Part shown: piece by piece, positions 3,016-8,601 of the stretch | Numbering within the stretch: the stretch's first letter is position 1 | Layout: every line of letters begins with the position of its first letter | Origin: Synechococcus sp. 8F6 | GTDB lineage: Bacteria; Cyanobacteriota; Cyanobacteriia; PCC-6307; Cyanobiaceae | Direction of reading: 5' to 3' | Assembly (NCBI RefSeq): GCF_002252665.1 | Contig: NZ_NQKZ01000001.1 | Location: 1-64,000 of the forward strand | DNA length: 64,000 nucleotides | Made by a program: the position numbers and the translations under genes | Notes under the pieces: generated by a model | Database searches by the model: none | Told to the model about the DNA's origin: nothing | What the model saw: only the letters and a program-made list of their open reading frames with translations

Positions 3016-3429
3016 TCAAGAGCCGCTGATGGGTTCACTGGGATGAATCTGCAGCTCGGCGTAGCCGGTAGCTGGATCCAGCTGCCGGCAGAAGCGCCAC
3101 TCCGCAAGCAGGCCAACCATCAGCTCAGCGGTGGTGCGCACCAGCGAGCCGGCGCAGAGATGGCCCCCGATCACGGTGCCGCGGCTGTCGGCCACAGCCA
3201 CATGGAGGTGAACCCCATCGGGCGAGAGCGTGCCCGCGAGGCTGAGGATCTCCAGGTCGCCCGTGATCGTGGTGCTCTCCTGCTTGCCGGCCAGCCGCAG
3301 CTGGAGCACCGACAAGCTGCCAACGGCGCTGATCACGCAGCCAGCCTGCTCCTGCTGCTGAGCCATCCAGGTTTCCAGCGCCAGGCGCAGGTCGTCGCCG
3401 GGACTGAAGCGCAGTGGCACCACCCTCAT
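3016..3429 (-). CDS. PPC/DUF296-domain DNA-binding protein
   Basis: A 137-residue single-domain protein of the PPC (plants and prokaryotes conserved, DUF296) family. Typical features are the N-terminal strand with LRFSPGDDLRLALETW, the central AGCVISAVGSLSVLQLR, and the segment HLHVAVADSRGTVIGGHL, whose histidines occupy the positions of the family's metal/ligand site. Bacterial members form trimers and are thought to bind DNA or small ligands; the exact role is unknown. Its start overlaps the stop of the acetyltransferase gene by 4 bp, so the two are probably co-transcribed. Confidence 0.75.
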   Translation of the reverse strand: MRVVPLRFSPGDDLRLALETWMAQQQEQAGCVISAVGSLSVLQLRLAGKQESTTITGDLEILSLAGTLSPDGVHLHVAVADSRGTVIGGHLCAGSLVRTTAELMVGLLAEWRFCRQLDPATGYAELQIHPSEPISGS

Positions 3430-4013: not shown

Positions 4014-4619
4014 TCAGCGCATCAGCAGACCAACAGGCCCCAGCGCCGCCACACCACCACAGAGCGCGAGCAGCAGGGCCACCCCCCGGGTCCAGGCCAG
4101 GGGCAGACGCCGCAGCACTAGGTAACTGACGCCGCTCACCAGCACTGAACCGGCAAAGGCACCCAACCACCAGAGCGCCGCAGAGCCGTCAGCCGGTGCC
4201 TCCAGCCCGTGAAGCATGGCGTGAACCGCCACCGCTGATGCCACCAGGGCGGCACAGGCACCCAACTGGGGACCCTGCTTGGAACGAAGGCAGCTCAGCA
4301 CCAGCACCGCCACCGCGCTGATTGCCAGCGCCGCGAGAAACTCGTGTGCTGGCAACGTGCCTCCTATCGCCCCAAAGACGCCGCCGCCGACGGCACCGGC
4401 CAGGGCCCAGAGCAGCAGTTGGGTCGAGATGCAGGAAGCTGCGGCCCCCACGGCGATCAGCAGCAGCAGGTGGTCGACTCCACTGATCGGATGCAGGAAG
4501 CCGGCGGCGATGCCGCCGTGGGCGATGCCATGGGCCTGAGCCGGTTGATCGAGCAGCAGCGCCAGTGCTGCCGCACCACCGATCAGGGCCAGAGTTCTGG
4601 CTGAGAAGGTCTGGGGCAT
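4014..4619 (-). CDS. hupE: HupE/UreJ-family metal transporter, probably cobalt
   Basis: A 201-residue membrane protein with a cleavable-looking N-terminus ending in AQAH and about six hydrophobic helices. The family hallmark HPISGVDHLLLLIAVG (about residues 42-57) carries metal-binding His and Asp residues, and LPAHEFLAAL follows. HupE/UreJ proteins import nickel or cobalt. Here a cobalamin riboswitch lies immediately upstream, which argues for cobalt uptake for B12 synthesis rather than nickel for urease. The start chosen is the ATG at 4619, giving the signal-like N-terminus; longer frames run into the riboswitch. Confidence 0.82.
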   Translation of the reverse strand: MPQTFSARTLALIGGAAALALLLDQPAQAHGIAHGGIAAGFLHPISGVDHLLLLIAVGAAASCISTQLLLWALAGAVGGGVFGAIGGTLPAHEFLAALAISAVAVLVLSCLRSKQGPQLGACAALVASAVAVHAMLHGLEAPADGSAALWWLGAFAGSVLVSGVSYLVLRRLPLAWTRGVALLLALCGGVAALGPVGLLMR

Positions 4620-4639
4620 TGAGAGAACCGGTCCGCGCC

Positions 4640-4805
4640 GGAGGTGAAGAGGTTGTGCACGGCGAGCGTTCTGACTGAGGCGGCCGTTGGTGGCCTCCAT
4701 CACAGCTGCGGGACAGTGACGGACTCGGCTCAGGCAAAACCTGCACCCCACCGGACTTTCCTCGTTGCCTCCAGGGAGTGACCCGCTGGAACCGATCTCT
4801 CCATT
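4640..4805 (-). promoter_or_regulatory. Cobalamin (B12) riboswitch upstream of hupE
   Basis: On the minus strand this leader carries the conserved cobalamin-aptamer blocks in order: GAGGAAAGTCCGGTG (about 4766-4752), then CTGTCCCGCAGCTGTGATGG (about 4716-4697, a variant of the CCCGCAACTGTGA B12-box core), then the GAGGCC/GGCCGCC helix elements. The leader ends about 20 nt before the hupE start, so ligand binding would probably block translation or transcription. Boundaries are approximate. B12 elements upstream of hupE are established in cyanobacteria. Confidence 0.8.
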
Positions 4806-4868
4806 GTGTGGCTGGACAGCACCGCAGAGGCCACCGCCGCCACGAGCAGGTGGGCCCAAACCGTGACC

Positions 4869-5294
4869 CTATGGGGAGTGCTCAGAGCAGGGCATCCAGC
4901 GGGATCCCATGGCATGGGCGCCGCTGCAGCCCAATTTGCGGGCTTGCTCCAAAGCCTCCTGGCGGGTGGGGTAGGCCATCAGGTTCGGCGCCATCGGGCC
5001 GGCGGAACCGTGGTGGTGCTGATGCAGGGCACCAGAAAGAGCCCCCAGGCGCCGTGGCCCCATGCCCTCAAGACCTGCCCACCAGACCCCCATCACGTTC
5101 ACGCCAACCACCAACACGCCCATCCCCACCACGCAGGCATTGAGGACACCCATCCCCACCACGCCGAGGCTGATGACCCCCATTGGCACCACGCCGATGC
5201 TCACCACACCCATCGGCACGATGCCAATCGAGATGATGCCCAGGGGCGCCACCCCGAAGGCAATCCGCTTGGGCTTGTCACCGCATTGGGCCAT
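4869..5294 (-). CDS. DUF3721 protein with glycine pentapeptide repeat
   Basis: A 141-residue protein in two parts. From residue 14 to 79 a glycine falls at every fifth position without a gap (only position 54 is Cys), giving hydrophobic units such as GVVSI, GVVPM and GVISL; this could form a beta-solenoid or be membrane-inserted. A short His cluster (HQHHH, 91-95) leads to a DUF3721 motif: C123, GAH, W133-MPC136 and H139. Cys, His and Met in this pattern suggest soft-metal binding, but no function is known to me. It lies 14 bp downstream of a second DUF3721 gene with the same motif, so they are probably an operon. Confidence 0.65.
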   Translation of the reverse strand: MAQCGDKPKRIAFGVAPLGIISIGIVPMGVVSIGVVPMGVISLGVVGMGVLNACVVGMGVLVVGVNVMGVWWAGLEGMGPRRLGALSGALHQHHHGSAGPMAPNLMAYPTRQEALEQARKLGCSGAHAMGSRWMPCSEHSP

Positions 5295-5308
5295 GGGAGT
5301 GAACGGCC

Positions 5309-5560
5309 TCAGTGGGCGTGCACAGAGCCAGGAGCGTCACCGTGCTTGGCACAGGGCATCCACTGGCTGCCCATCTTGTGGGCCCCTTTGCAGTTGAAGT
5401 GCAGCTTGGCGGCCTTCTCCGCTTCTGCCTGGGTTGGGTAGAGGGCCGGCACACCGCCTGTGCCGATGGCCGGCGCGGCAAGGCCGGCGGCCGAGAGCAA
5501 CAGGTTGGCGCCCAGCGCGGCTACCGCTGGGGCGCCCCAGGGACTGAAACGGTGCGGCAT
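5309..5560 (-). CDS. Small exported DUF3721 protein
   Basis: An 83-residue protein with a signal-like hydrophobic N-terminus (AVAALGANLLLSAAGLAAPA) followed by one DUF3721 domain: YPTQAEAEKAAKLHFNCKGA, then HKMGSQWMPC and a His-containing tail. The ATG at 5560 is preferred over the upstream one at 5611 because it places the hydrophobic segment at the N-terminus and leaves room for a promoter. The gene faces a divergently transcribed MerR regulator 147 bp away. Likely a periplasmic or thylakoid-lumenal metal-binding protein (inference). Confidence 0.65.
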   Translation of the reverse strand: MPHRFSPWGAPAVAALGANLLLSAAGLAAPAIGTGGVPALYPTQAEAEKAAKLHFNCKGAHKMGSQWMPCAKHGDAPGSVHAH

Positions 5561-5707
5561 CGGGAGGGTGGCGAGAGCAGAAAACCTGCCAGACAGAACC
5601 CTAACAGGCATCTCCAGTAGTGCGCCTCTGGTGGAGGGTTGGCGCTCAGGGTTCTCGCAGCCTGCCGATGCCTACCGTTGGGAAGCTTCCATGCAGTGGA
5701 GGGATCG

Positions 5708-6118
5708 ATGGCCCGCCGAGGATCGCTGTCAGTGGCATCCACTCCCGGCCTGCGCATCGGCGAGGTGGCCAGGCGCACAGGCCTTTCCGTGAAGACGATT
5801 CGCTTCTACTGCGACGAGGGACTGCTCCAGCCCAAGGGACGATCAGACGCTGGTTACCGCTTGTTTGATGACGAGAATCTTGCTGAGCTCACGATCATTC
5901 GTGCCCTGCGCTCGATGGATGTCGCGATCCCTGAGGTGTCGAGAATCCTGGAGGTGCGTCGCTCGGGTCTGTGCAACTGCTCTGTCTTAAAGGACAGCAT
6001 TGCGACCAAGGTGGAGTCGATCAACTTGCGGATCTCTGAGCTCGCCGCCATGAAAGACGAGCTGTCGCGCCTATTGGACAGCTGGCAGACCTGCGGTGGC
6101 AGGAGAGCTGACCGCTGA
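5708..6118 (+). CDS. MerR-family metal-type transcriptional regulator
   Basis: A 136-residue regulator. The N-terminal winged helix (residues 15-60, LRIGEVARRTGLSVKTIRFY) is classic MerR. A dimerisation helix follows, with Cys at 89, 91 and 129; the C-x-C spacing near the start of the dimer helix is like metal sensors of the MerR/CueR group, but the ion cannot be assigned. The start at 5708 follows a GGAGGG ribosome site. Divergent orientation to the DUF3721 genes suggests it controls them; a partial dyad (CTCCAG/CTGGTGGAG, 5611-5637) between the genes could be its operator. Confidence 0.8.
   Translation: MARRGSLSVASTPGLRIGEVARRTGLSVKTIRFYCDEGLLQPKGRSDAGYRLFDDENLAELTIIRALRSMDVAIPEVSRILEVRRSGLCNCSVLKDSIATKVESINLRISELAAMKDELSRLLDSWQTCGGRRADR

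Positions 6119-6387: not shown

Positions 6388-8601
<2,214 letters not shown>

Follow-up and report, generated by a model that had tools for sequence, protein, structure and literature searches.

A ten-residue glycine repeat with a methionine/histidine ladder, fused to DUF3721, as a putative soft-metal handling factor of picocyanobacteria

Results and Discussion

The fusion gene and its operon

The window, i.e., the whole stretch of 64,000 nucleotides of Synechococcus sp. 8F6 DNA analysed here, carries a reverse-strand gene in which a glycine-rich repeat is joined through a His-rich linker to a C-terminal DUF3721 domain (Table 1). The initial annotation had reported glycine at every fifth residue from 14 to 79 with Cys54 as sole replacement, and this is exactly what the translation contains, glycine occurring at residues 14, 19, 24, 29, 34, 39, 44, 49, 59, 64, 69, 74 and 79 and cysteine at 54. 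The 14 units had also been called unbroken, which overstates the case, as 13 of the 14 positions are occupied by glycine and the longest uninterrupted run is eight. When the letters of the protein were shuffled 20,000 times, no shuffle gave 13 of 14 glycines, the maximum being 10, and a run of eight appeared once. At the DNA level, the proposed period of 15 bases had to be corrected, Tandem Repeats Finder returning a unit of 30 bases, corresponding to ten residues, with 3.2 copies and 77% matches.

Both parts of the protein were recognised by Pfam. The repeat is a member by score of PF01744, the GLTT repeat (E 8.3e-14; 51.3 bits against a cut-off of 21), and residues 108-140 match PF12518 over the entire profile (positions 1-33 of 33; E 4.8e-17; 61.8 bits against a cut-off of 27), confirming the C-terminal DUF3721 motif noticed earlier. 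The statement that the repeat is not of the classic A(D/N)LxX pentapeptide type agrees with the lack of any match to PF00805 at E values up to 1. The initial observation was accurate, and its subject is a known but unexplained protein family: PF01744 and PF12518 are both known by name and both lack a known function. A search of an open library of papers returned no mention of "GLTT repeat", PF01744, "DUF3721" or PF12518. The present analysis adds the named repeat family, the ten-residue unit, the Met/His ladder and the metal-related neighbours.

Table 1. Positions of the fusion gene, its parts, the adjoining genes and the promoter-like elements within the window
Feature	Position	Strand	Basis and remarks
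GLTT-repeat and DUF3721 fusion gene, 141 aa	4869..5294	(-)	Open reading frame and translation, start ATG; Pfam PF01744 and PF12518
Repeat region, residues 14-79, pentads with initial Gly	5058..5255	(-)	Super-repeat GVVPMGVVSI; Met28/38/48/58/68, first rung taken by Leu18
His-rich linker joining the repeat to DUF3721, residues 91-99 (HQHHHGSAG)	4998..5024	(-)	Translation
DUF3721 domain, residues 108-141 (C123, H127, M129, M134, C136, H139)	4872..4973	(-)	Pfam match 108-140; conserved columns
Companion small gene with DUF3721, first of the operon	5309..5560	(-)	PF12518, 58.1 bits; signal-peptide-like start by eye
HupE/UreJ-like membrane protein, downstream	4014..4859	(-)	PF04955, E 1.2e-13; frame opens at TTG
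MerR-family regulator, divergent	5708..6118	(+)	Pfam MerR_1, E 2.8e-18; CxC before the dimer helix (position by eye)
Promoter-like element, operon side, CTCCA-N15-TGGAG then TAGGGT	5598..5636	(-)	Between the MerR start (5708) and the companion gene
Second dyad, MerR side, CTCCA-N5-TGGA...TAGG	5671..5701	(-)	Divergent promoter

DUF3721 also occurs as a sole domain, as in the companion gene of the same operon. The start of this gene is likely the ATG at 5560, giving a protein of 83 residues. The other candidate ATG, at 5611, adjoins a dyad; the choice was made by eye. Judging from the sequence of its N-terminus, the companion protein is probably exported. The frame of the downstream HupE/UreJ-like gene probably has its true start later than the TTG at which it opens.

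Conservation and distribution of the fusion protein

A search of 60 relatives gave hits in 37 genomes, in some cases to the DUF3721 part only or to the repeat only. Relatives in named genomes amounted to 408 stretches, and the analysis was carried out on the best 80 of these 408, whose record titles refer to Cyanobium, Synechococcus (WH 5701 and WH7803 included), Prochlorococcus, Vulcanococcus, Aphanothece, Microcystis elabens and uncultured cyanobacteria. Relatives with the repeat are thus abundant, which disposes of the possibility, raised by the initial annotation, that no homologue exists. Repeat and DUF3721 lie in one frame in 80 out of 80 loci of this best set. Over residues 14-68, the 80 frames differ from the window at 574, 310 and 1850 first, second and third codon positions; of the codon differences, 1442 are synonymous and 716 nonsynonymous. 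All comparisons were made against the single window sequence and are hence not independent. On these comparative grounds the 141-residue frame is a real gene, as the fusion is kept in relatives and constrained at the codon level. One of the 80 loci (L096) comes from an assembly titled Gammaproteobacteria; in all likelihood this is a Synechococcus contig that was binned wrongly.

The DUF3721 core, C.G.H.MG..WM.C, is conserved in 80 of 80 loci and is followed by a histidine in 79. The linker of the 80 fused relatives contains at least three histidines in 69 cases and none in six. A frame consisting of DUF3721 alone lies directly upstream, within about 75 bases, in 65 of the 78 loci with enough sequence and is absent from that place in the other 13; the upstream frames have starts that look by eye like signal peptides or lipoprotein signals.

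Across 292 cyanobacterial genomes, PF01744 was found in 69, a few of which (G046, G073, G098 and G127) hold on reading other low-complexity frames or none, and PF12518 in 36, all belonging to the window's own family. The GLTT proteins read outside that family carry the repeat without DUF3721. A second, short GLTT-only paralogue follows the fused gene in one locus (L107:6621-6836) and also in L007, L011, L013 and L016; it has "APRG", i.e., an arginine, on the first rung, lacks DUF3721 and was met in 1 of the 78 loci of the upstream-gene survey.

Two other readings of the operon were rejected. No relative was found in phage, plasmid and viral collections, one search of which gave nine stretches matching a pattern, none of them confirmed, so that a mobile element finds no support there; a role in antiphage defence was discarded as neither operon protein matched a PADLOC family at E 0.01.

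The ten-residue unit and the Met/His ladder

The true repeat unit is ten residues long, GVVPMGVVSI, and the window protein reads in tens as GVAPLGIISI GIVPMGVVSI GVVPMGVISL GVVGMGVLNA CVVGMGVLVV. Met28, 38, 48, 58 and 68 are invariant in an alignment of 47 sequences. We then considered 19 GLTT proteins from cyanobacteria outside the window's own family. The fifth position (phase 5) of their units comprises 118 cells, occupied by Met in 82, His in 28 (together 110), Thr in 6 and Ala and Ile in one each, and within the counted repeats 28 of 29 histidines and 82 of 87 methionines fall on this phase. Since the pentad to be called phases 1-5 was set for each sequence by its Met and His residues, the uneven division of these residues between the pentads is in part built in. 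Still, the last position of the alternate pentad (phase 10), usually Ile, Phe, Val, Ala or Leu, lacks Met and His altogether in 18 of the 19 proteins and has one in L153, and the remaining phases have nearly none. Histidines stand on the ladder in 11 of the 19 proteins, at the first two or three rungs, the later rungs being Met, and eight proteins have a ladder without a His rung. At least three histidines are found within the last 40 residues of 16 of the 19.

Methionine and histidine are both soft-metal ligands. Their exchange is not an easy hydrophobic swap, as one to Leu or Ile would be, because changing ATG into CAT or CAC takes at least two base changes. A ladder of these residues might bind a soft metal. 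The window's own family offers a different picture, as its 486 phase-5 cells in 81 frames contain 405 Met, 78 Leu, 2 Gln, 1 Arg and no His. This Met/Leu pattern without histidine is as compatible with a structural ladder as with a metal-binding one, and it is the main weakness of the metal reading.

The first alternative to be weighed is a purely structural Met ladder, i.e., the hydrophobic stack of a thin beta-solenoid that would act as a scaffold or membrane-associated element, metal being touched only by DUF3721 or the His tail. Leu or Phe ladders hold other solenoids together. The whole repeat is hydrophobic, Met or Leu fill 483 of the 486 cells mentioned above, eight of the 19 distant members manage without a His rung, and DUF3721, the curated motif of metal type, is not part of the repeat. 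Against this, a hydrophobic demand would make Leu, Ile and Phe common at phase 5 of the distant proteins, where together they account for 1 of 118 cells, and the histidines of 11 of these 19 members sit on the ladder phase and hardly elsewhere (28 of 29). We regard the structural ladder as a serious but rather unlikely explanation.

Some known repeats and metal binders can be compared with this protein. PF01744 (6 copies) also matches the ten distant members that were scanned, which is no independent test as they were found through PF01744; its name and description, unlike the features found here, include no ten-residue unit, Met/His ladder or His-rich ends. PF12518 is fused to the repeat here and elsewhere also stands alone. 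The A(D/N)LxX pentapeptide repeats of PF00805 adopt the Rfr fold, a right-handed quadrilateral beta-helix, and share the five-residue period, but the present repeat has a ten-residue unit and no A(D/N)L pattern. Pentapeptide_2 (PF01469) gave weak matches, below the cut-off, to four of the ten distant members (E 0.0026-0.039). The midge antifreeze protein is a ten-residue solenoid with a tight coil and glycine every five residues; it provides a geometric parallel and no more, the fold of the present repeat not being established. CopM, SilE and the Met filter of Ctr1 use Met and His as copper ligands in helical, disordered or channel proteins; the use of these residues is alike, but here they are placed on a strict ten-residue hydrophobic repeat. 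CopM also appears in the available text of PMC4182526 and PMC13421787.

Structure prediction

The structure prediction proposed by the initial annotation was run with AlphaFold for the full-length protein (47 sequences) and, as a second model, for residues 1-80 (57 sequences), resulting in mean pLDDT values of 54.0 and 54.6, respectively. Both models place strands about every ten residues, with a tendency towards coils of 10 or 20 residues, which at pLDDT 54-55 does not count as evidence. Foldseek comparison of both models with the PDB found no match at E 0.001 or better; in a sequence search of the PDB the best E value was 0.046, and the three alignments displayed end in His tags. Of the two ideas in the initial annotation, that of a hydrophobic solenoid presenting a soft-metal site is the one that has been strengthened: the strict ten-residue Met/His phase, the conserved DUF3721 core and the metal genes in several neighbourhoods speak for it. 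Its fold is modelled at pLDDT 54-55. A section heading in the accessible part of a paper on a knotted solenoid links that solenoid to Brevundimonas (PMC13123833).

A membrane or envelope beta structure that has nothing to do with metals, for example part of a pore or of the cell surface, would suit the stretch of about 55 residues (14-68) that is free of charge and the exported look of the partner protein, the latter judged by eye. Yet the fusion protein begins with MAQCGDKPKR, in which no signal peptide is evident by eye, and such a structure would leave the gene neighbourhood, the His-rich ends and DUF3721 unexplained. We therefore consider it very improbable.

The divergent regulator and its promoter region

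The operon is faced in the window by a divergent gene for a MerR-family regulator, whose cysteines at the dimer helix recall divalent-metal sensors. Compared with NCBIfam models, it scored 79.3 bits for CadR-PbrR (cut-off 151.45), 78.9 for CueR (cut-off 147.4) and 73-75 for ZntR, all below the cut-offs. It misses the CueR equivalog cut-off, and the CadR-PbrR and CueR models come to a near-tie below their thresholds, so that the regulator is not assignable to copper. Clustering placed a divergent MerR gene in 23 of 81 loci; a strict pattern, applied to 77 loci, gave 16 with such a gene, the window among them.

The operon-side dyad (CTCCA-N15-TGGAG plus TAGG, or a near variant) occurs in 11 of the 16 MerR loci against none of 61 others, and the MerR-side dyad in 13 of the 16 against 1 of 61, both patterns having been devised after inspection of the 16 MerR-locus sequences. 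The MerR protein may control the operon through these operator-like elements. The two dyads of this divergent promoter lie within 5598-5701, and their spacers of 15 and about 5 differ in length by about one helical turn. A scan of 4600-5800 with the sigma-70 consensus revealed no promoter.

Gene neighbourhood in picocyanobacteria

Gene clusters, each named from one representative, were counted at any distance within the sequence retrieved around 81 loci, which extended at most 6 kb in each direction and less on the many short contigs. A Fur-family gene cluster (PF01475) occurs in 24 of the 81 loci, an iron-uptake-type porin in 20, and two HupE/UreJ clusters (PF04955) in 13 each. AztA-like and AztB-like ABC genes of zinc/manganese type, both below the cut-off, were found in nine and seven loci, and an SO_0444-like Cu/Zn efflux gene, also below the cut-off, in six. 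The metal is not pinned by these neighbours, because they include the Zn/Mn-type ABC genes, arsenic genes, the iron-uptake-type porin and the Fur-family gene. Among the arsenic genes, L092:525-1502 encodes the arsenosugar radical SAM protein ArsS (TIGR04167, 447 bits against a cut-off of 300), the cluster of which is present in 14 of the 81 loci.

Gene neighbourhood in other cyanobacteria

The layout of the neighbourhood was also drawn for 23 loci, 21 of which lie outside the window's own family. In L145 the repeat gene is immediately preceded by a c-type cytochrome gene and followed by DUF1775 and CopC-CopD genes. In L153 and L159 a BlaI-type regulator (PF03965, 100.8 and 111.6 bits) lies 27 and 43 bases past the repeat gene and is followed by a peptidase, which scored 30.4 and 21.4 bits with PF01435 (M48; cut-off 20.3) and 21.1 and 24.2 bits with PF05569 (M56), below the cut-off of 31. 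An HMA protein is encoded 1.7 kb from the repeat gene in L159, and a DUF411 protein nearby in L163.

As described in the available portions of PMC7896320 and PMC9252766, the BlaI-type PetR (Slr0240) and the protease PetP (Slr0241) of Synechocystis form a copper-dependent plastocyanin/cytochrome c6 switch, the genes conserved around petR being petP, comB and petJ (PMC9252766). L153 and L159 share with this system the order of a BlaI-type regulator followed by a peptidase, a likeness matched by Pfam profile only. According to the same partial text, the PetRP regulon contains two functionally uncharacterised proteins, of which Slr0602 is one (PMC7896320), and slr0601-slr0602 are named in the accessible part of PMC12382314. 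The portions available of four papers on metal stress (PMC3865332, PMC8374608, PMC3744912 and PMC4182526) do not name the repeat gene, nor is it mentioned in those of PMC13421787 and PMC9252766.

As a control, CopC, HMA, P1B ATPase and BlaI-type genes were counted throughout the same genomes. One of them lies no more than 3.5 kb from the repeat gene in five of 21 genomes against 0.29 expected (P ~9e-6), an estimate to be read in the light of families chosen after four of the five places had been seen (the G112 ATPase surfaced afterwards), rounded genome sizes and related genomes that are not independent. In the other 16 genomes none of these genes lies within that distance. We take the count as support and not as proof. 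The CopC gene adjoining the repeat gene is the single copy among the 23 genomes, and in two genomes the full-length BlaI-type gene adjoining it is the sole copy.

These data also bear on whether the metal might be zinc or cadmium, a Zn/Cd-responsive MerR protein driving the export or buffering of divalent metal. This would agree with the tie of the regulator between the CadR/ZntR and CueR models, with the AztA-like and AztB-like genes counted above (nine and seven of 81 loci, below the cut-off) and with the P1B ATPase in the neighbourhood of the repeat gene in L166, which passes the Cd-family cut-off, fails the Cu one and scores as Zn/Cd type. Methionine, however, is a poor zinc ligand by established chemistry, and the clearest single-copy neighbours elsewhere, i.e., the only CopC of the 23 genomes and the sole full-length BlaI-type gene in two, are of copper type. 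We consider zinc or cadmium in place of copper improbable.

L166 (G047, contig C2, 685-700 kb) is a metal island in which the repeat gene and three P1B ATPase genes lie within 15 kb; a Met/His-rich protein with MMGGDHMMCGDGMMGG repeats, seen by eye and belonging to no Pfam family, is encoded next to the ATPase gene.

Proposed function

We propose that the repeat protein is a putative metal-handling factor of picocyanobacteria which binds a soft metal, probably copper, through its Met/His ladder, a proposal in which our belief and our doubt are about equal. The ten-residue repeat would have two sides, be turned by glycine at each five residues and stack one Met per unit, or His in many distant relatives, so that a ladder of soft-metal ligands might run along one edge of a thin structure. 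Further metal sites may be present in the His-rich linker and in DUF3721 with its Cys, His and Met residues. The protein would be produced together with the small, probably exported DUF3721 protein, a divergent MerR regulator adjoining the pair in some genera, and would most likely buffer, store or transfer copper(I), or else a different soft metal, between the cell interior and the periplasm. The regular repeat, the phase of the ladder, its conservation, the gene pair and the regulator with its operator-like dyads are observed in the sequences, and metal binding by the ladder, copper as the metal, control by MerR, fold and location are inferred.

A bolder version, which we put forward as tentative and on the whole unlikely, is that the repeat folds into a thin beta-solenoid with ten residues per coil and a continuous edge of five to seven Met/His ligands. 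This would be a new mode of holding soft metals found across cyanobacteria, tied to copper by PetRP-like or CopC neighbours in some genomes, joined to the lineage-specific DUF3721 in picocyanobacteria of oceans and lakes and accompanied by a metal-type MerR in some genera.

Copper affects where in the ocean the different picocyanobacteria do well. Marine cyanobacteria are more sensitive to copper than eukaryotic phytoplankton, as stated in the accessible part of PMC3744912, and the handling of excess zinc by Prochlorococcus is called unknown in that of PMC8374608. If the proposal is correct, the conserved pair of a probably exported DUF3721 protein and a Met-ladder repeat-DUF3721 protein, with MerR in some genera, represents a concrete candidate for metal handling in picocyanobacteria. 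Two Pfam families without known function would then gain a first testable role, and the repeat might provide a new metal-binding architecture simple enough for design.

Other features of the locus

An open frame antisense to the fusion gene (4806-5441, (+)) reads as His-rich (HHVHANHQHAHPHHAG...), but it is a mirror of the Met, Ile and Gly codons and not a gene; it clusters as antisense in 81 of 81 loci, the window included. A PCC-domain protein (PF03479) is encoded at 3016-3429 (-), and its cluster is near the operon in seven of 81 loci. Finally, a peroxidase-family gene of 731 residues (PF00141) lies at 6406-8601 (+), just past the MerR gene, and appears KatG-like by its length and on reading.
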